Of a DNA stretch of 10,445 nucleotides, positions 1,289 to 10,445 are shown in pieces. The notes under the pieces are model-generated. The model was not told the DNA's origin, ran no database searches, and worked only from the letters and a program-made list of their open reading frames with translations. Each line of letters starts with the position of its first letter. Position 1 is the first letter of the stretch. The stretch spans positions 1 to 10,445 of the forward strand of contig JAFLJU010000474.1 of assembly GCA_022712835.1 (NCBI GenBank), read 5' to 3'. The position numbers were made by a program, and so were the translations under genes. The DNA is from Desulfobacteraceae bacterium (GTDB taxonomy: Bacteria; Desulfobacterota; Desulfobacteria; Desulfobacterales; Desulfobacteraceae).

Positions 1289-2380
1289 GTGAAAATTCTC
1301 TTTCTTGAACCCTTTTTTGGGGGATCCCATAAAGATTTTGCCTTGGGATTTGCTGCCCATTCATCCCATGATGTGGACCTTGTTACCCTGCCGGACTGTT
1401 TCTGGAAGTGGAGAATGCAGGGTGCCTCCCTTTATTTTATCAACCAAATCAAAAATCTGGCCCAATATGACCTGATTTTTACCACGGATATGATGAATTT
1501 AACGGATTTTATGGCTCTGGCTGGCCGAAACCTTCCGCCCATTGTCATGTATTTCCATGAAAATCAGCTTTCCTATCCCCTGGGATTCCACGGTAAAAAA
1601 GAGTCTCACCTGGGATTTGCCAATATTATTTCTGCCGTTGCCGCGGATGGACTCCTTTTTAATTCAACATATCATTTTAGCGCTTTTTTGGGGGAAGCCA
1701 GGCACTTGATCAAACAGATGCCCGATACCAGACCTGAGTGGATGCTTTCGGAACTTGAGCAAAATGCCCAGGTTCTTTATCCGGGGTGCAGGTTTGATGC
1801 AATCCCTTTTACCCTGGACAAAAACACCCTGGACAAGCCCTTGATCATCTGGAACCACCGGTGGGATTATGACAAAAAGCCGGAAGTGTTTTTCAAGGTT
1901 CTTTCTGAATTGAAAAAAAAGGGGGTTGGTTTTTACCTGGCCCTTCTGGGGGAGCAATACGATATTATCCCCGAGGTGTTTGTGACGGCCAAGGAGATGT
2001 TTAAGGAAGAGATCCTGGTATACGGCTATGTCTCATCACGGGAAAAATATTTATCCTGGCTTTCAAAGGGAAGCGTGGTGGTCAGTACGGCCATCCAGGA
2101 AAATTTTGGTATATCTGTTGTGGAGGCAGTCCGCCACGGGTGCTTCCCTTTGCTGCCCAACCGGTTGTCCTATCCAGAAATCATGCCGGAAAAATTCCAT
2201 GAACAGGTTCTTTTTAGGTCCACATCAGATCTGGTGCAGAAACTTGCAAATTTTTTGCAGGACCCGGATCGGTTTTTTCCCATGCGTCAAAGTTTGTCCG
2301 ATTATGCCATCCGATTTTCATGGGAAATCCTATCAAAACAGTATGATATGATATTGGAAAAATATAAAAATGGTTCTTGA
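1289..2380 (+). CDS. DUF3524-type GT-B glycosyltransferase, tRNA-queuosine mannosyltransferase (QTMAN/GTDC1) family
   Basis: A 363-residue cytosolic glycosyltransferase. The N-terminus has the family signature LEPFFGGSHKDF at residues 6-17, with further conserved blocks YFHENQLSYP at 88-97 and IIWNHRWDYDKKPE at 186-199. The C-terminal donor half ends with the GT-B E-x7-E type motif ENFGISVVEA at 271-280 followed by PLLPNRLSYPE. The animal family member GTDC1/QTMAN mannosylates queuosine in tRNA-Asp, and bacterial members are inferred to act on tRNA queuosine or a related acceptor. The start is GTG at 1289, with AAGGA nine bases upstream and the Rossmann strand KILFLEP immediately after it. 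It is separated from the redox operon by 256 bases containing a separate promoter, so it is probably not functionally linked to it. The family call is firm; the acceptor is inferred. Confidence 0.85.
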   Translation: MKILFLEPFFGGSHKDFALGFAAHSSHDVDLVTLPDCFWKWRMQGASLYFINQIKNLAQYDLIFTTDMMNLTDFMALAGRNLPPIVMYFHENQLSYPLGFHGKKESHLGFANIISAVAADGLLFNSTYHFSAFLGEARHLIKQMPDTRPEWMLSELEQNAQVLYPGCRFDAIPFTLDKNTLDKPLIIWNHRWDYDKKPEVFFKVLSELKKKGVGFYLALLGEQYDIIPEVFVTAKEMFKEEILVYGYVSSREKYLSWLSKGSVVVSTAIQENFGISVVEAVRHGCFPLLPNRLSYPEIMPEKFHEQVLFRSTSDLVQKLANFLQDPDRFFPMRQSLSDYAIRFSWEILSKQYDMILEKYKNGS

Positions 2381-2636: not shown

Positions 2637-3794
2637 ATGCAGCTTTCGGAAATGCAGATTGATTATTGTATGGAGTGCGGGGTTTGTACAGGATCTTGTC
2701 CCGTTGCCATGGCGCTGGATGGGTTTTCCCCCAGGCAGATGATCAAGCGCGCCATGAAGGAACCAGAAGGGGAAATACTTTCCAGTCCTGATTTATGGGC
2801 CTGTTTAAGTTGTTCCCGGTGCTCGGACAGATGTCCGGTTGAAATTGATTTTCCGGCCTTTATCCGCGGTCTTCGCCAAAAGGCCCGGCTTCAGGAAAAC
2901 CTGCCGAAGTTAAGCCACCACGGGATGTTTCATACCATCACCAGTCTCCAGGCCGCCCAGATTGAACAGGAGCGGGCCAAACCTGCGGGGGCCCGGGTCA
3001 AACCGAAACAGGACAGAATCGGGTGGGCCAAGGCGGCGGGTAAAATTTCAGATACCGGGGATTACTTTTATTTTACCGGATGCATCGCCTTTTATGATGT
3101 GGCCTTTGAATACCTTGATCTTAAAATGCTCACCAGTGCTGAAAATAATTTGAAGTTATTGAATAAAATGGGCATTGACCCGGTTATCAGCAATGACGAA
3201 TGCTGCTGTGGCCATGATGCCTTTTGGTGCGGGGATGAAAAAACTTTTGAAACATTGGCCCAAAAAAATATCGAAACCATTGAAAAAAGTGGTGCCAAGA
3301 CCGTTATTTTTGGATGCCCGGAAGGGTATTCCATGTTCAAGGAGGCCTATACCGAACGGTTTGGGCCGTTACCCTTTGAGGTTTGCCATATCACCCAGTT
3401 TCTGGCGGAGCGACTGCCAAAAACAGATCTGACCTTTAAGGCCGGCAGCGTTGATCGGGTCACTTTCCAGGATCCCTGTCGCTTAGGCAGACGACAGGGT
3501 ATCTATGAGGCACCCCGGCAATTGATCCAAATGGTTTCAGGCTGTGATCTTGCTGAAATGGAACATAACCGGGAAAACGCCGTTTGTTGCGGTACCACCG
3601 CCTGGATGCAATGTTCCTCCTGTTCAAAGGAGATGCAGATTCAACGGCTTAAAGAGGCAGAGGCAGTGGGAGCTAAGGCAATTATTACCGCCTGTCCCAA
3701 ATGTCAGATCCATTTGACCTGTGCCAAGAAAAACACAGACCATGATCTTGCGATCATTGACCTTGTTTCATTTCTTGCAGATAACCTTGTTTAA
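2637..3794 (+). CDS. HdrD-like (HdrC-HdrB fusion) iron-sulfur protein with CCG domains
   Basis: A 385-residue soluble iron-sulfur protein. Residues 1-80 are an HdrC-type ferredoxin domain with two [4Fe-4S] motifs, C11/C14/C17/C21 and C56/C59/C62/C66. Residues about 140-385 are an HdrB-type part with two CCG domains. The second is complete: C281, C317-C318, C353 and C356, with extra cysteines C326 and C329. The first has C149, C189-C191 and C227, but reads CPEG at 227-230 where CPxC is usual, so its last ligand is lost. In the Hdr family CCG domains bind noncubane clusters that reduce disulfides or pass electrons. The lost ligand suggests that only one site is a true noncubane cluster. GGAAG lies eight bases before the ATG. 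As first gene of the operon and just upstream of a large HdrA, it fits the place of BamD in class II benzoyl-CoA reductase clusters. HdrD of methanogens is membrane-associated through HdrE; no HdrE-like gene is seen here. Confidence 0.9.
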   Translation: MQLSEMQIDYCMECGVCTGSCPVAMALDGFSPRQMIKRAMKEPEGEILSSPDLWACLSCSRCSDRCPVEIDFPAFIRGLRQKARLQENLPKLSHHGMFHTITSLQAAQIEQERAKPAGARVKPKQDRIGWAKAAGKISDTGDYFYFTGCIAFYDVAFEYLDLKMLTSAENNLKLLNKMGIDPVISNDECCCGHDAFWCGDEKTFETLAQKNIETIEKSGAKTVIFGCPEGYSMFKEAYTERFGPLPFEVCHITQFLAERLPKTDLTFKAGSVDRVTFQDPCRLGRRQGIYEAPRQLIQMVSGCDLAEMEHNRENAVCCGTTAWMQCSSCSKEMQIQRLKEAEAVGAKAIITACPKCQIHLTCAKKNTDHDLAIIDLVSFLADNLV

Positions 3795-3853
3795 GAGATG
3801 ATCTATTTTTAAGTTGAAACAAGGGACACTATAAAAATTTTGGAGTAATTATA

Positions 3854-6800
3854 ATGGCAAACAATAAAACACCCCACGGTTCGGTGATGGTGGTTGGCTC
3901 TGGGATTTCCGGTATGCAGGCCGCCCTTGATCTGGCCGATTCGGGCTACCTGGTTCACCTCATTGAAAAAGAAACCGCCATTGGCGGGGTCATGGCCCAG
4001 CTGGACAAGACCTTTCCAACCAATGATTGTGCCATGTGAGTGATCTCACCTAAACTGGTCGAGGTCGGCCGGCACTTAAACATAAAGCTCCACACCCTTT
4101 CAACCGTCCAGAACATTGCAGGGGAAGCGGGTGATTTTACCGTATCCATACGACAGGAACCCCGATTTGTGGACATGGACAAATGTATTGCCTGTGGGGA
4201 ATGCACCAAAAAATGTCCGGCAAAAACCCCGGATATATTTGATGAGGGACTCGCCAAACGAAAAGCCATTTACGTCTCCTATCCCCAGGCAGTGCCCTTA
4301 AAATATGCCATTGACCCTGGCAAATGCCTTAAATTAACCAAAGACAAATGTGGCACCTGCGCCAAGGTTTGTCCCACCGGGGCCATTAATTATGAAGCTG
4401 TGGCAGAAGACATCACCCTGAATGTGGGGTCTGTGATCATGGCAGCCGGGTTCAAGCCCTTTGATCCTTCCGGGCTTGATAATTATCAGTATGCCAATTT
4501 TCCCAATGTAATCACCAGTATTGAATATGAGCGGCTGTTGTCTGCCGGAGGGCCTACCCTAGGCCACATCGAGTGTTACCCGGACAAGCATGCGCCCAAA
4601 AAAATTGCCTGGCTCCAATGTGTGGGATCCCGGGACCAAAATAAATGCGACAATGCCTATTGTTCCTCTGTTTGCTGCATGTATGCGGTTAAAGAAGCCA
4701 TGATGACAAAGGATCATATTGACGGCCAGTTCCAAGCCTCTATTTTTCTCATGGACATGAGAACCTTTGGAAAAGATTTTGAAAGATACTATGAGCGTGC
4801 CAAGGACGAAGGCGTTCGGTTTGTCCGGTCCAGAATTCATTCCATCACCGAGGATGAAGATCAAAAACTTGTCTGCACCTATGTGAGTGAAGATGGGAAA
4901 AATATCACGGAAGTCTTTGATATGGTGGTATTGTCCGTGGGAATGGAAACCCCCAAGGACCTGGCCCAGGCTGTTCGGGACATGGGCATTGAGCTCAATG
5001 CGCATAATCTGGTGGAGACCACAAGCTTTCAGCCGGTCAGCACTTCCCGAAAAGGGATTTATGTGTGTGGTGCCCTCCAGGAACCCAAGGATATTCCCCT
5101 GGCCGTCATGGAAGCATCTGCAGCCGCTTGCGATGCCGGTATCAGTCTTTCACCCTCCCGGGGGACTCTGACAAAGACCCGCACCTACCCCATAGAGATG
5201 GATGTCGTGGGTGAGCAAGCTCGTATCGGGGTATTTGTCTGCAATTGCGGCACCAATATCGGCGGGATTGTGGATGTGCCTGATGTGGCCGCCTACGCTA
5301 AAACCCTTCCCAACGTGGCCTATGTGGAAGAGAATATGTTCACCTGTTCCCAGGATACCCAGGACAAGCTCAAGGCGGTGATCCTGGAAAAGAAGCTGAA
5401 CCGCATTGTTATTGCGGCCTGTACCCCCCGTACCCATGAGCCTTTATTCCAGGAAACCCTCAAGGATGCCGGCTTAAATAAATATCTCATTGAAATGGCC
5501 AATATTCGAAATCAGTGTTCCTGGGTTCATTCCAAGGAACCGGCCCTGGCCACAAAGAAAGCCCGGGATCTGGTTCGTATTGCCGTGGCAAAATCAGCTC
5601 TCATGCGGCCTCTTTCCCAGCCCACCGTAAGTGTGGTGCAAAAAGGTCTGGTCATCGGCGGTGGAATCACAGGGATTTCCTGTGCCCTGGGGCTTGCCAA
5701 CCAGGGGTTTCCCACGGCTCTCGTGGAAAAAGAAGATAGGCTGGGGGGCAATGCCCTTTATCTGAACCAGACCTGGAAGGGCGAATCCATTGAAAAGAAT
5801 CTGGCCGCTCTGGTCACGCAAGTAGAAGAACACCCCTTGGTGGATGTTTACACAAAGGCCCAGGTCACCGGGACATCCGGGTTTATCGGGAATTTTAAAA
5901 CCGTTGTTACCGCAGCTTCCAAGGAGTTGGTCATTGACCACGGGGCGGTGATCATGACCACTGGTGCAAAGGAGAGTCGCCCCAGTGAATACCTGTATGG
6001 GGAGGATGAACGGGTGGTTACCCACCTGGAACTGGATGCGGCGTTCAAGAATAATGATCCCCGGGTGGCAACCTGTCAATCTGCCCTGTTTATTCAGTGT
6101 GTGGGATCCCGTGACAAGGACCGGCCCTATTGTTCCAAGGTGTGCTGCACCCATTCGGTGAAATCTGCCCTTAAACTCAAGGAAACAAATCCCGACATGG
6201 ATGTTTATGTGATCTACCGGGATATCCGAACCTATGGCCAGCGGGAATTACTTTATAAAGCGGCAAGGGATAAAGGGGTTATTTTTATCCGGTATAGTCT
6301 TGACAATAAACCCGTGGTGGAACAACGAGGGGATTCCCTGGTTGTCCTGACCCGGGACCATATTTTAGGACTGCCCCTGGAAATTACAGCTGATCTTTTG
6401 GTGCTGGCATCTGCCATTGAGCCCCGGGAAAATTCTGCCCTGGCACAAATGTTCAAACTCACCCTTAATGGTGACAATTTCTTCATGGAAGCCCATGCCA
6501 AGCTTCGGCCAGTGGATTTTGCCACCGACGGCATGTTCCTGGCGGGCATGGCCCATTATCCAAAGCCTGTGGAAGAAAGCATTGCCCAGGCAAAGGCGGC
6601 GGTCTCAAGGGCCACCGTGGTATTGTCCAAGGAGCGTGTGGTGGTGGACGGGGTGGTTTCCTTTGTGAATGAGGCCCTGTGCCGGGGGTGTGGTGCCTGT
6701 GAAGAGACCTGTGCCTTTGGCGCCATTGAAATCTATGAAGCGGATAACGGGGTGAAGCTTGCCCGGGTACAGCAGGCGTTGTGCAAGGGCTGTGCGGCTT

Positions 6801-6886
6801 GTTCCTCTGCATGTCCCACCGGTGCTGCCGGTGTTTTCCACTATGACAATGAAGTGCTGGCGATGGTTGAAGCCGCCCTTAATTAA
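3854..6886 (+). CDS. hdrA: Double HdrA flavin/iron-sulfur selenoprotein (HdrA-HdrA fusion, BamE-like), Sec62
   Basis: Read through the TGA at 4037-4039, this gene gives 1010 residues. Module 1 has a Rossmann FAD motif VVGSGISG (13-20), the cluster motif TNDCAM-Sec62, a ferredoxin pair (C111/C114/C117/C121 and C158/C166/C169/C173), the CVGSRD block near 256 and an FAD-closing YVCGA near 404. Module 2 begins about 457 with GVFVCNCG (C463, C465) and contains C498, C523 and C555. It continues with a second FAD motif GGGITG near 602, CVGSRD near 749, and C-terminal 2x[4Fe-4S] motifs (C943/C946/C949/C953 and C977/C980/C983/C987). HdrA is the flavin-based bifurcating subunit of Hdr complexes. Conserved sequence on both sides of the TGA, and Cys at this place in ordinary HdrA, show recoding rather than a broken gene. 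GGAG lies eight bases before the ATG. It is followed after 35 bases by the MvhD-like gene, its expected partner. Automated callers would split it into a 61-residue fragment and a 948-residue ORF starting at GTG 4040. Confidence 0.93.
4037..4078 (+). promoter_or_regulatory. Sec codon TGA and SECIS-like hairpin in the first hdrA
   Basis: After the TGA (4037-4039), CTGGTC (4055-4060) pairs with GGCCGG (4067-4072), including G-U pairs, around the loop GAGGTC (4061-4066). TAA at 4051-4053 with TTA at 4076-4078 can extend the stem below an internal loop. The loop GG begins 24 bases after the TGA. Bacterial SECIS elements lie inside the coding region just after UGA and carry GG or GU in the apical loop, bound by SelB. 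This was found by eye and not scored. Confidence 0.7.
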
Positions 6887-6921
6887 ACGATAAGGCCGCA
6901 TTAAATAATAAGGAAATACCC

Positions 6922-7341
6922 ATGAACGACCTATTTGAACCCCAGATTATTACCTTTGCCTGCAATTGGTGCTCCTATTCGGCGGCTGATCTTGCCGGGG
7001 TGAGCCGGTTTCAATACCCCACCAATATGAGAATTATCCGGGTGATGTGCTCCGGGGGAATCAATCCCAATTATATTCTTAAGGCTTTTGAAAAGGGGGC
7101 GGACGGGGTGTTGGTCTCGGGCTGACACATCGGTGACTGCCATTACCTGGACGGTAATGTAAAAGCTGCCAAAACCTTTGAGATGACGGAAAAATTTTTG
7201 GACTTGCTGGGGATAGATCCAGCACGTATGAAACTTGCCTGGATTTCGTCTGCCGAAGGCAATAAATTTGCCCAGGTGGCCAATGAGTTTACCCAAAAGA
7301 TAAAAGAGTTAGGCCCTGCTGATATTAAACAGGTGGCCTAA
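6922..7341 (+). CDS. mvhD: MvhD/VhuD/BamF-like [2Fe-2S] selenoprotein, Sec68
   Basis: Reading through the TGA at 7123-7125 gives 139 residues, normal for a stand-alone MvhD domain. The conserved core is present: CNWCSY at 14-19, MCSGGINP at 42-49, and Sec68 in the motif SG-Sec-HIGDCHY where most family members have GCHPGDCHY. C73 is the partner cysteine. MvhD carries a [2Fe-2S] cluster and passes electrons between HdrA and a hydrogenase, formate dehydrogenase or NADH module. The sequence after the TGA is family-typical ([11 protein letters not shown], then a helical tail with [11 protein letters not shown]), so the stop is recoded. AAGGAA lies six bases before the ATG. Selenocysteine in this family is known from methanococcal VhuD and from the BamF proteins. 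Position 45 is Gly where Arg is usual (CSGRVDP). Confidence 0.93.
7123..7159 (+). promoter_or_regulatory. Sec codon TGA and SECIS-like hairpin in the mvhD-like gene
   Basis: CATTACC (7141-7147) and GGTAATG (7153-7159) form seven perfect pairs around the loop TGGAC. The loop GG starts 24 bases after the TGA, the same distance as in the first hdrA. This is the cleanest of the three candidate SECIS hairpins. Confidence 0.75.
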
Positions 7342-7344
7342 TAG

Positions 7345-7410
7345 TATTGATAGAAAATATTGATAGAAAATAATGCATAGAAGATAATGATAGATGATAT
7401 TGATAGAAAA
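7345..7410. repeat. Short direct repeats (TATTGATAGAAAA) between mvhD-like and second hdrA
   Basis: The 13-mer TATTGATAGAAAA occurs exactly at 7345-7357, 7358-7370 and 7398-7410, with degraded GATAG/GATAA units between. It fills most of the 121-base spacer before the GTG start at 7463. It is too short and lacks unique spacers, so it is not CRISPR. It resembles a slipped-strand simple repeat. Confidence 0.7.
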
Positions 7411-7462
7411 AATGCAAAAACAAACGAGTGAAGATGATATAGCGAAAACAGGAGGAAAGATT

Positions 7463-9001
7463 GTGACAACGGATATACTTGTCCTTGGTGGCGGCATTGC
7501 CGGGATCCAGAGTTCATTGGATCTTGCGGAAATGGGATTCAAGGTTCACCTGGTGGAAAGCCTGCCCTCCATTGGCGGGAAAATGGCCCAACTGGACAAA
7601 ACCTTTCCCACCAATGATTGTGCCATCTGAATTCTCTCGCCTAAAATGCTGGATGTCGGTCGACATCCCAATATTGAGTTGATGGCTTATAGCGATCTTG
7701 TGAAGGTTGAGGGAACGGTGGGTGATTTTACGGCCACCATCCGGAAAAAAGCACGGTTTGTGGAAGAGGACAAATGCACCGGGTGCGGTGCCTGTGCCGA
7801 AGTCTGTCCCACAACGGTGTCTGATCTTTACAATGAGGGGCATGCGGAGAGAAAGGCGGTTTATTCCTGGTTTGCCCAGGGGATTCCCTCCACCCATGTG
7901 CTGGACCCGGATCATTGCCGGGTGCTGACCGGGAAGCGATGCGGGATCTGCCAGAAAAAATGTGAAGCCAATGCCATTAATTTTGATCAGACGGAAAAAA
8001 TTATCGATCTTGCTGTTGGGGCCATTGTATTGGCAACGGGTTATGATATTTTTGATCCGGTTAAAATGCCGGAATACAGATATGCAGAACTTGACAATGT
8101 GATCACCGCCATGGAGTTTGAACGGTTTTTGTCTGCTTCCGGCCCCACGGAAGGCCATATTGATAGGCCCTCGGCCAGGAAGGTGGAAGACAAAATTTCT
8201 CAATTGTCCAAACAGCTTAAAAAATCTAAGAAAGCCCTGGATCGGTTTGAAGCAAAACACGGCCAGGCAAGCGGCGATTTTTACGCAAGCTTTACGGCCA
8301 AGACCCTTCCTGCCGGAGAGGATCTGGCAAAAGATGCCGATAAATGGGCCGCCAAATATGAAGTCCATCTTGAGATTTATGGCCCCTTGCAGGCCTTAAA
8401 ACTTAAGGCCAAGGGGTTTACCACCGCAAAAAAGATTGCTTTTATCCAATGCGTGGGGTCCAGGGATTTGCGGTTTTATCCTTTTTGTTCAGGATTTTGC
8501 TGCATGCATTCCATCAAGGAAGCCATCATTGCCCATGAACATGACAATGATACCCATTCTGTGATTTTCGGCATGGATATCCGGGCGGTAGGCAAGGGGT
8601 TTGAGGAATATAAAATCCGAGGGGGCAACAATTCAAATATTGAGTACAAACGCTCCCGGGTGGCCGAGATTACAAGAGGGGAAAATAACAACCCCGTCCT
8701 GATCTATGAGGATACCAGCGTTCAAAAGGTGATAAAGCAACCCTTTGATCTGGTGGTTCTGGCAACGGCCTGTGCTCCTGTGAAAAATACCCAAATGGTG
8801 GCAGATATATTGGACATTGAGCTGGACCGGTTTGGATTTTTCAAAACAGATCCTAGTGAGCCTTTGGATACCACAAAGGAAGGCATCTTTGTGTGCGGGT
8901 GTTCCCACAGCCCCATGGATATCCCGGAATCGGTTGCCCAGGCAAGTTCTGCCGCGGCAAGGGCGGTTCAGGCGGTTATGAAACATAAAAAGGCATCTTA
9001 A
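7463..9001 (+). CDS. hdrA: HdrA-like FAD/iron-sulfur selenoprotein with inserted charged segment, Sec56
   Basis: This gene gives 512 residues when read through the TGA at 7628-7630. It is a paralogue of module 1 of the upstream double HdrA: FAD motif LGGGIAG near 6-12, TNDCAI-Sec56, then ILSPK and DVGRHPNI. Ferredoxin motifs are C105/C108/C111/C115 and C152/C160/C163/C167; the last reads CEA instead of the usual CP. CVGSRD lies near 330 and an FAD-closing FVCGCSHSP near 477. Between GHI (about 232) and KKIAFIQC it has about 80 extra residues, rich in Lys, Glu and Asp and likely helical, absent from the upstream copy. I chose GTG 7463 because a full AGGAGG lies seven bases ahead and the Rossmann strand follows at once; ATGs at 7394 and 7412 would translate the repeat spacer. 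It lacks the second HdrA module, which follows as a separate gene. That pair recalls QmoA/QmoB in layout, but the TNDCAI-Sec motif is of the HdrA type. Confidence 0.92.
7628..7668 (+). promoter_or_regulatory. Sec codon TGA and SECIS-like hairpin in the second hdrA
   Basis: GGATGT (7651-7656) pairs perfectly with ACATCC (7663-7668) around the loop CGGTCG, in which the outer C-G may also pair. The loop GG starts 28 bases after the TGA. The GGTC in the loop resembles known bacterial SECIS loops such as that of E. coli fdhF. Confidence 0.7.
8174..8425 (+). other. Insertion within the second hdrA (coiled-coil-like segment)
   Basis: Residues about 238-321 of the 512-residue HdrA. The first half has a heptad-like, Lys/Leu-rich pattern ([19 protein letters not shown]) suggesting a helical hairpin or coiled coil; the second half is mixed. 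The paralogous place in the upstream HdrA has only nine residues (ECYPDKHAP). It may be a docking surface for a partner subunit; that is inference. Confidence 0.7.
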
Positions 9002-9020
9002 GGTTAGGTCTGCCCAGCAT

Positions 9021-9095
9021 GGATACAAATAGTATGGATACAAAAAGGTGGATACAAATAGGGTGGATACAAATAGGGTGGATTATGATGGGTAT
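9021..9095. repeat. Tandem ~15-bp repeats (GGATACAAATAGGGT) between the two split hdrA genes
   Basis: Units start at 9021, 9036, 9050 and 9065, the last two (9050-9064 and 9065-9079) being identical. A degraded unit begins at 9080, with further GGAT starts at 9096 and 9121. The array occupies most of the 126-base spacer before the ATG at 9128. It contains stops in the frame shared by the flanking genes. The function is unknown; it could affect spacing, mRNA stability or recombination. Confidence 0.8.
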
Positions 9096-9127
9096 GGATT
9101 ATTATAGATAAAGATAAGTTGGATACT

Positions 9128-10445
9128 ATGTTAAATAAAAAGAGCGTAAAATGTGTCGAAGAACCCAGGATAGGGGTGTTTGTTTGTGACTGCGGTTCCA
9201 ACATCGCAGGACACCTGGATTGCCCTGATGTGACTGAGTTTGTAAAGTCGCTTCCCCATGTGGTTTTTGCCAAGGAAAATCTTTATACCTGTTCGGAAGC
9301 GGGAATTGGTGAGATCAAAAAAGCCATCATAGAAGAACGGTTGAACCGGGTGGTGGTAGCGTCCTGCTCTCCTCGAACCCATCATCCGTTGTTTGCAAGC
9401 TCCTGTGCCGAAGCCGGGTTGAATCCTTATTTGTTTGAAATGGTCAATATTCGGGATCAGTGTTCCTGGGTTCACATGGGCAACCGGGAAAATGCCACCC
9501 AAAAGGCCAAAAACCTGATCCGCATGGGAGTCGCCAAGGCCGCAGGACTTGCGCCCCTGGATGAAATTACCTCTTCTTTGACCCGGAAAATTTTGGTGGT
9601 TGGCGGCGGGATTGCAGGACTGTCTGCTGCCCAGGCATTGTCTGATATGGAGCTTGAGATCTTCCTGGTTGAAAAAACAGGTCAAATGGGCGGGCTTTTA
9701 AACCAGGTGCATGGGATGGAAACCGGCGGAACAGCGAAGGCACGTCTGGATACCATTATCAATGATGTCAACTCGCGTGCCAACATCACCTGTTATACTA
9801 AGGCCAAGTTAGCGGAAACAAGCGGATATATCGGAAATTTTGAGGTTAAAATAGATACGCCTGATGGGTTTGTGACCCAAAAAGTGGGGGCCATTGTGGT
9901 GGCCACCGGTGCGGTTCCCCTGATTCCAAAGGGAATCTTTGGGTATAAAGAATCCAATGGTGATGCTTTGGGCAATGCATTGCCTGTCATCTCTCTTATG
10001 GAGTTGGAAACCCAATTAAAGAAAGAGGGAAAAGGCGAGCTTGACGATACCCACGGTATCCCCAAACGAATGGTCTTTATCCAGTGTGCCGGTGCCAGGA
10101 CAAAAGGAAAAGAATATTGTTCACGGATCTGCTGCATGGTTGCAGTTAAAAATGCCATGCTCATCAAGGACAAATATCCCCTTATGGACGTGCGGGTGCT
10201 GTATCGGGACATGCAGATGTATGGTACCCAAAAGGAACAGATGCTCTGGGATGCCCGGGGCAAAGGGATTCGCTTTGATGTGTATGACCCGGAAAATCCG
10301 CCCCAGGTGACCCAAGGTCGGGTGGATTTTTTCCAGACGGTTACCGGTAAGACGGTTCAGTTGGAAACGGATCTTGTGGTGTTGTCAACCCCCCTGATTC
10401 CCCGAAGCTCTGCCGGAGAACTGGCCAATTTACTTCGGGTGCCAA
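9128..10445 (+). CDS. hdrA: HdrA-like flavoprotein, second-module type, partial (C-terminus beyond right edge)
   Basis: At least 439 residues, open to the right edge. It starts directly with the HdrA N-terminal cluster region: GVFVCDCGSNI (C20, C22), C55, C80 in SCSPRTHHPLF, and C112 in RDQCSWVH. An FAD motif VVGGGIAG follows near 158-165, and a CAGAR block near 320-324 replaces the usual CVGSR. Further on are YCSRICC (331-336) and LYRDMQMYG, and no in-frame TGA is seen. It matches module 2 of the double HdrA encoded upstream, so with the preceding gene it forms a split version of that protein. The C-terminal ferredoxin pair expected from the paralogue would lie beyond the window. The Shine-Dalgarno is weak (only GGAT nearby), unlike the preceding gene. 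It shares the frame of the preceding gene but is separated by several stops, so it is a separate protein, not a readthrough product. It may bind the preceding HdrA as a heterodimer, as QmoA/QmoB-type proteins do; this is inferred. Confidence 0.88.
   Translation, partial: MLNKKSVKCVEEPRIGVFVCDCGSNIAGHLDCPDVTEFVKSLPHVVFAKENLYTCSEAGIGEIKKAIIEERLNRVVVASCSPRTHHPLFASSCAEAGLNPYLFEMVNIRDQCSWVHMGNRENATQKAKNLIRMGVAKAAGLAPLDEITSSLTRKILVVGGGIAGLSAAQALSDMELEIFLVEKTGQMGGLLNQVHGMETGGTAKARLDTIINDVNSRANITCYTKAKLAETSGYIGNFEVKIDTPDGFVTQKVGAIVVATGAVPLIPKGIFGYKESNGDALGNALPVISLMELETQLKKEGKGELDDTHGIPKRMVFIQCAGARTKGKEYCSRICCMVAVKNAMLIKDKYPLMDVRVLYRDMQMYGTQKEQMLWDARGKGIRFDVYDPENPPQVTQGRVDFFQTVTGKTVQLETDLVVLSTPLIPRSSAGELANLLRVP

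Follow-up and report, generated by a model that had tools for sequence, protein, structure and literature searches.

A selenocysteine-rich Hdr operon with two HdrA pairs, probably linked to formate dehydrogenase, in a Desulfobacteraceae bacterium

We analysed a 10,445-nucleotide stretch of DNA from a Desulfobacteraceae bacterium (assembly GCA_022712835.1, contig JAFLJU010000474.1; hereafter the window), in which a sequence-only reading had pointed to a five-gene Hdr-type electron-transfer operon with three selenoproteins. Our analysis suggests that the window holds the first five genes (g1 to g5) of an operon which, judged by its relatives, has eight genes and six selenocysteine (Sec) codons. 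This operon likely encodes a formate-dehydrogenase-linked Hdr complex with two HdrA pseudo-heterodimers, and this complex is probably a bifurcating one. The features concerned, including the putative Sec insertion sequence (SECIS) hairpins, are as follows.

2637..3794, + strand: g1, HdrD-like protein (HdrC-like 2[4Fe-4S] ferredoxin plus two CCG domains), 385 aa, without Sec
3854..6886, + strand: g2, fused double (type II) HdrA, 1010 aa, with Sec62
4037..4039, + strand: in-frame TGA of g2 (codon 62, Sec62), aligning with Cys197 of 5ODC HdrA
4040..4084, + strand: putative SECIS hairpin segment of g2 (CUGGUCG-AGGU-CGGCCGG), stem kept in 15/15
6922..7341, + strand: g3, MvhD (FlpD family), 139 aa, with Sec68
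7123..7125, + strand: in-frame TGA of g3 (codon 68, Sec68), aligning with Cys67 of 5ODC MvhD
7126..7170, + strand: putative SECIS hairpin segment of g3 (AUUACC-UGGAC-GGUAAU), kept in 19/19
7463..9001, + strand: g4, first half of the split HdrA pair; about 512 aa when begun at GTG 7463 (the longest open reading frame begins at 7394)
7628..7630, + strand: in-frame TGA of g4 (codon 79 of the long open reading frame, Sec), aligning with Cys197 of 5ODC HdrA
7631..7675, + strand: putative SECIS hairpin segment of g4 (GGAUGUC-GGUC-GACAUCC), kept in 18/18
9128..10445, + strand: g5, second half of the split HdrA pair, with an N-terminal cluster domain and a flavin adenine dinucleotide (FAD) domain; cut by the window end

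As the sequence-only reading had stated, the five genes are consecutive and three of them carry one in-frame TGA each: when TGA is read through, g2, g3 and g4 are open with exactly one in-frame stop, whereas g1 and g5 (from its putative start, ATG 9128, to the window end) contain no in-frame TGA. GTG 7463 of g4 is preceded by an AGGAGG motif in the window; five of the six relatives compared have the motif too, and the sixth (locus L010) shows a different start. This GTG is the probable start of g4, making its Sec residue 56 of 512.

The TGA codons proved to be conserved. All same-clade loci holding the respective site keep the TGA, namely 15/15 for g2, 19/19 for g3 and 18/18 for g4 (52/52 sequences). 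These counts, like those of the hairpins, comprise hits of at least 64% identity, with L114 and L116 (on the same contigs as L011 and L009) left out; L017 and L018, two contigs of one genome that both carry the g3 site, are both among the 19 g3 loci. In the window, a hairpin with a 7-bp stem and a G in its loop follows each TGA, and all site-holding same-clade relatives keep a stem of 6 bp or more. A hairpin of this type occurs at 319 of the 1993 codons of g1-g4 in the window and is kept in all relatives (at least 10) at 34 of them, comprising the three TGA neighbourhoods (codons 59-66 of g2, 65-72 of g3 and 77-85 of g4) as well as codons 1-8 of g1 and codon 23 of g4. In the per-site folds, the g2 rows of L005, L011 and L017 represent the paralogous g4 site (48% identity), and the other low-identity rows are paralogues too, such as L018 under g4 and the window, L006 and L018 under g6. 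Furthermore, synonymous identity among the same-clade loci is 0.58, 0.58 and 0.60 over the whole of g2, g3 and g4, compared with 0.87 (rank 4 of 998 windows), 0.85 (4 of 127) and 0.72 (81 of 522) in the 12 codons after the respective TGA, the rank of g4 being weak taken alone.

Two results count against recoding: the segments after the TGAs do not stand out in plain folding energy (ranks 222/993, 49/122 and 173/518 for g2, g3 and g4), and for the g2 segment of the window itself the fold of lowest energy is a different hairpin from that of most relatives. The Rfam search of the window gave no match at E up to 1, so that the SECIS support rests on our purpose-made hairpin test. The Sec decoding machinery was looked for in the genomes of relatives, where tRNA-Sec scored above the family cut-off in 12/12 (seven same-clade, three Desulfomonile-type and two others) versus 5/14 controls, and SelB in 10/11 same-clade genomes versus 2/14 controls; the eleventh (G088) has a C-terminal piece of SelB. 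Both g2 and g4 also show the CxxU motif of selenoprotein HdrA, with C194/U197 equivalents and downstream putative SECIS hairpins. A 2026 review, in the part covered, gives CxxU as the HdrA motif and mentions more than one Sec in some archaeal FrhD/VhuD proteins.

An alternative explanation is that the TGAs are true stops and that the genes are decaying or yield short proteins. In line with this, the g2 orthologue of Desulfobacula toluolica Tol2 (P0011, a protein named HdlA2) is annotated as 915 aa, beginning after the UGA. We regard this explanation as extremely improbable in view of the conserved TGAs, the lack of any other in-frame stop in the window genes, the conserved hairpins and the tRNA-Sec and SelB of relatives; gene decay is ruled out by the conservation of both codon and hairpin. 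The comparison confirms g2, g3 and g4 as carrying three well-supported predicted Sec sites and not chance TGAs. The top 42 database hits of g2 all measure 871-955 aa, a length that fits annotation starting after the UGA (the full sequence was looked at for P0011). With the protein annotated only from after the UGA, in at least the Tol2 record, the g2 architecture is easily missed.

We then turn to the gene neighbourhood. The sequence-only reading had made its proposal depend on conservation of the gene order. Of the 86 family genomes searched, 19 share this order over what their contigs cover, with 68-87% identity in g4; a further genome of the 86, G022, has g4 at 56% identity and the order g2-g3-g1-g4-g5-g6-g7-g8. 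In the relatives, an hdrD-like gene and a fused hdrA pair (Sec) are followed by mvhD (Sec), a split hdrA pair whose first half has Sec, a second mvhD with two Sec, an fdhB-like gene and fdhA (Sec); Tol2 (G065) has all eight genes in this order with the same six Sec codons. Here, g6 is a second MvhD with two TGAs, at CTWU and GGU, in 18/18 same-clade loci (this count leaves out L018, whose contig ends in g3 and whose g6 hit, with C at the first site, is g3 itself). The following g7 is an FdhB-like 4Fe-4S protein of about 267 aa, for which the curated FdhB models gave no match, and g8, which has one TGA, codes for a formate dehydrogenase alpha chain (TIGR01591, 876 bits versus a cut-off of 666) and follows g7 in 16/16 same-order loci whose contig goes past g7. 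The consecutive run g1-g5 of the sequence-only reading stands; its five-gene unit is rejected, judged by this continuation into g6-g8 in the relatives. Since the relatives' operon ends in MvhD(UU)-FdhB-FdhA(U), where U denotes Sec, formate is the likely electron donor or product. No mvhA or mvhG, as expected in an operon for an MvhADG-HdrABC hydrogenase complex, was found among the eight conserved genes of the relatives, the search for hydrogenases being confined to these genes and not extended to the flanks beyond.

The subunit types could also suggest that the system belongs with BamDEF, the module that feeds electrons into class II benzoyl-CoA reductase and has HdrD-, HdrA- and Sec-containing MvhD-like subunits. 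Besides this likeness of subunit types, a published source, in the part covered, lists BamE of D. multivorans as one of the genes in which UGA encodes Sec. Because the operon ends in fdhBA in the same-order relatives, we consider such membership very improbable; the likeness was drawn from subunit descriptions, not from Bam sequences.

The operon has a doubled HdrA. In g2, unit 1 (about residues 1-440) contains an inserted ferredoxin and Sec62, while unit 2 (about 454-1010) contains the N-terminal cluster domain and a C-terminal ferredoxin. Two thioredoxin-reductase-type FAD domains in one chain, which define a type II HdrA, occur in g2 only, g4 and g5 being separate chains. In the alignment of the four HdrA units, the N-domain cysteines 11, 13, 46, 71 and 103 are present only in the second half of g2 (g2C) and in g5, and the same two units carry the C-terminal ferredoxin (for g5, this is seen in relatives, the L004 and L010 proteins having about 560 aa and a 2[4Fe-4S] domain at the C-terminus). 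The inserted ferredoxin, in turn, is found only in the first half of g2 (g2N) and in g4. A structure model likewise matches both g2 halves to the HdrA fold. The Sec residues of g2 and g4 both align with Cys197 of the solved HdrA (5ODC), and Cys197 of HdrA is a trans-subunit ligand of the N-terminal [4Fe-4S] cluster, as described in the covered part of PMC9012536. The sequence-only reading had placed all three TGAs at cluster-cysteine positions; this holds for the two HdrA proteins, whose Sec falls on the Cys197 ligand by alignment, while for g3 the claim reduces to a conserved cysteine. It had further listed g4 and g5 as a second Sec HdrA and an unfused HdrA module. The Sec in g4 is borne out, but by their predicted domains g4 and g5 are one split HdrA pair with a two-unit design equal to that of the fused g2; two independent extra HdrAs are ruled out, since the two proteins jointly carry the domain set of g2. 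As a separate observation, g4 has a variable, charged insertion (window 8180-8430) between the ferredoxin insert and the FAD-domain cluster, which is absent in 5ODC and g2 and measures about 80 aa in the Desulfobacula clade, less in L016 and L022 and more in L121.

The remaining two proteins fit the assignment to an Hdr-type operon made earlier. For g1, Pfam gives CCG (87.9 bits) and Fer4_8; its eight ferredoxin cysteines are conserved in 20/20 relatives, and cysteines 281, 317, 318, 353 and 356 of the second CCG domain in 22/22 (the Desulfomonile group and L121 included). For g3, Pfam gives FlpD (186 bits), and the NCBIfam VhuD model scores 142 bits, below its cut-off of 215. Among the partners by which an Hdr-linked formate dehydrogenase is recognized, MvhD is represented by g3, and HdrBC/HdrD by g1 with an incomplete first CCG site.

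From these features, the operon would most likely make one soluble cytoplasmic complex. In it, the selenium formate dehydrogenase and the C-terminal ferredoxin domain of g5 would exchange electrons by way of FdhB and the MvhD with two Sec. Both HdrA pairs would be built-in heterodimers: the half that contributes the N-terminal cluster domain is without Cys197, and the half without this domain supplies Sec as the Cys197 equivalent. Electrons would be split (or merged) at the FAD, one branch running from the Sec-ligated N-terminal cluster through the inserted ferredoxin domain to ferredoxin, the other from the cluster of cysteines 386/399/403/404 to the second HdrA pair (via the MvhD g3) and the HdrD-like protein. 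The electron route and the roles of Cys197, K409 and E356 are those published for relatives; beyond them, we infer assembly into one complex, its direction, bifurcation, the acceptor and the purpose of the selenium, and of these, bifurcation and a benefit from selenium had also been put forward by the sequence-only reading. As guesses, selenium on the trans-ligand may tune potential or rate, or C194-U197 may form a redox switch.

Whether electrons are really split at the FADs is questioned by a plain-wire alternative, in which formate electrons pass through the HdrA FADs and clusters to the HdrD-like protein and ferredoxin is not reduced. The output subunit is indeed HdrD-like with an incomplete first CCG site, E356 is replaced by Asp in g2C, and type II HdrA had no biochemistry at the time of PMC12054007, in the part covered. 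On the other side, K409 and the four FAD-domain cluster cysteines (386/399/403/404) are present in all four HdrA units, E356 is present in three, and both inserted ferredoxin domains keep 8/8 cysteines. We hold a plain wire to be rather unlikely.

The Fdh-linked, probably bifurcating complex that we prefer could also run the other way, as a confurcating formate synthase reducing CO2 with ferredoxin and a thiol/HdrD donor, for syntrophy or the Wood-Ljungdahl pathway. The covered parts of the literature describe Hdr-Fdh as reversible in a survey and report a full Wood-Ljungdahl set in Desulfobacula-related metagenome-assembled genomes. The sequence sets no direction, and we rate the reverse operation of the same complex as possible, though not favoured. 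A more elaborate version of the preferred complex is a two-stage formate bifurcator, in which two HdrA pseudo-heterodimers in series use formate electrons twice and give ferredoxin of a lower potential than a single bifurcation would. We advance it with considerable reserve. Two successive bifurcations have been proposed in an analogous way for those type II clusters of archaea that contain an additional HdrA and HdrD (PMC12054007, in the part covered). In such a two-stage arrangement, it is equally tentative that selenium would sit at each trans-subunit ligand on the ferredoxin branch, that the Sec-bearing MvhDs would join the pairs, and that the fused type II HdrA (seen in most relatives) would be exchangeable with an HdrL/GltD (NAD(P)H) type, as in L139 and L140. 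The likelihoods that we assign to these rival explanations overlap with that of the preferred one.

Several points weigh against the Fdh-linked, bifurcating complex. By sequence, CCG domain 1 of g1 is without the second cysteine in its closing CxxC. The Asp of g2C at position 356, noted above, belongs here as well. The proteins g2, g4 and the cut g5 all stay below the curated cut-offs of the NCBIfam HdrA models, and in the structure model of g2 the loop 48-58 near Sec62 has a predicted local distance difference test score (pLDDT) below 50. The published role of Cys197 refers to a structure called M. wolfeii, whose numbering we take to be the same as that of 5ODC (residue 197 Cys). Moreover, g6-g8 lie past the window end and are predicted for this operon from its relatives, and fdhA follows g7 in 0/6 Desulfomonile-group loci that reach g7; L137 and L141 are also without fdhA. 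Because all these loci lack fdhA, the HdrA part can exist without it.

These loci belong to a wider set of variants. In the Desulfomonile group (L016, L020, L022, L024 and L025), the genes run g2-g3-g1-g4-g5-g6-g7, where g2 has Cys and g6 has Cys/Sec; L016 also has an HdrB-like gene upstream of g2. In L139 (1437-5858) and L140 (1421-5842), the place of g2 is taken by a Sec HdrL-type HdrA with a GltD-like insertion (Fer4_20, Pyr_redox_2), which adjoins g4(U)-g5-g6(UU)-g7-g8(U); from this, the HdrA unit at the g2 place seems exchangeable. L142 reads g2(U)-g4(U)-g5-g6(UU)-g7-g8(U), with no g3 between. A simple form, hdrA2x(U)-mvhD-fdhB-fdhA(U), where hdrA2x is the double hdrA, is present in L143-L146 (MvhD with two Sec) and in Desulfobacterium autotrophicum HRM2 (MvhD with one Sec), and MvhD hits with two TGAs were found in at least 12 genomes of a phylum sample of 395. 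In a tree of the first HdrA units, the g4-type units of Desulfobacula, G022 and Desulfomonile fall together in a single clade (26 rows; Shimodaira-Hasegawa-like approximate likelihood ratio test (SH-aLRT) 100), apart from the g2-type units (54 rows; 99). This tree of first units only was built in quick mode from alignment fragments, with L081-L103, L114, L116 and the 80 collected second-unit sequences left out, without bootstrap and with a midpoint root, and 35 of its 113 inner branches are open. Since the g4 units form their own clade, the two-pair design would be older than these groups or have moved as a block.

Around the operon genes, AT-rich short tandem repeats (13-bp TATTGATAGAAAA and 15-bp TGGATACAAATAGGG) occupy much of the gaps g3-g4 (7345-7440) and g4-g5 (9020-9083). 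The five relatives compared have other sequence in the g3-g4 gap, and the g4-g5 gap of L001 contains related GATACAG repeats. Just upstream of the operon, on the same strand, lies a tRNA-queuosine mannosyltransferase-like gene (QTMAN_N; window 1289-2380), and an open reading frame homologous to it by eye is also upstream of the operon in L004 and L010.

Taken as predicted, the single HdrA residue by which two HdrA units are linked via a shared cluster, located on the proposed ferredoxin branch, is Sec in both pairs. The operon therefore lends itself to testing whether selenium as a cluster ligand tunes the low-potential arm in flavin-based bifurcation, and its cultured hosts, D. toluolica Tol2 and Desulfospira joergensenii, make it approachable.

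We compared the operon with known systems; it represents a more complex form of an enzyme type known from methanogens and a few sulfate reducers. Within the parts of the literature covered, the sequence-only reading went too far in calling the complex possibly undescribed: the Hdr-linked formate dehydrogenases of Tol2 and D. autotrophicum are in print, and Sec HdrA and MvhD have been known in Deltaproteobacteria since 2006-2009. The HdrA-associated formate dehydrogenase of Tol2 was published as HdrBCA-MvhD-FdhBA, locus tags RS06275-RS06300 (PMC5736913), and was likened to our operon by gene names, not by locus tags; in the covered parts of that text, neither two HdrA pairs nor a double-Sec MvhD nor a Sec-containing HdrA is mentioned for Tol2. 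A 2018 survey, again as far as covered, includes the Hdr-associated formate dehydrogenases of Tol2 and D. autotrophicum and calls their role unknown. A doubled HdrA pair with Sec at both trans-ligands, and the operon's double-Sec MvhD, found no description in the open-licence literature covered, which did not include the Tol2 genome paper. In HRM2 (G067), a Sec double HdrA, a Sec MvhD, an FdhB-like protein and a Sec FdhA stand in a row as in our operon, but there is no g4 orthologue (best hit 6.4e-83, 53% over 234 residues) and only one MvhD lies between HdrA and FdhB. For the same strain, hdrA/hdrL-mvhD-fdhBA loci, several Sec Hdr and MvhD proteins, and fdh genes in some hdr loci were reported in 2009 (PMC2702500, in the part covered).

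Among archaea, type II HdrA-Molybdop-FdhB-MvhD clusters, some with an extra type I HdrA and HdrD, share with our operon the fused double HdrA, HdrD, a further HdrA, MvhD, FdhB and a molybdopterin protein (PMC12054007, in the part covered). The operon described here differs in being bacterial, in the relatives' molybdopterin protein, which passes the formate dehydrogenase model and has Sec, in its second HdrA, which is a split pair, and in its six Sec codons. The fused or tandem HdrAs of anaerobic methanotrophic archaea (ANME) and Moorella follow the same complementarity of N-domain and Cys197 as g2 and g4/g5; compared with ANME HdrA3/HdrA4, where the N-domain half comes first, the g2 halves are reversed, with the Cys197 half first and Cys197 replaced by Sec (PMC9012536, same parts). 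In Deltaproteobacteria, multi-Sec hdr operons were reported in 2006, and the glpC-hdrA-frhD-frhG-frhA operons of Syntrophobacter resemble ours in having several Sec Hdr/MvhD-type genes per operon and clustered hdrA-hdrA genes; they are hydrogenase-linked and have a Sec GlpC, whereas here the eight conserved genes include no hydrogenase and g1 is without Sec (PMC1794560, in the part covered). Overall, the kind of system is known, Hdr-linked formate dehydrogenases being in print, and the doubled HdrA with predicted Sec at both trans-ligands appears as a variant of it.

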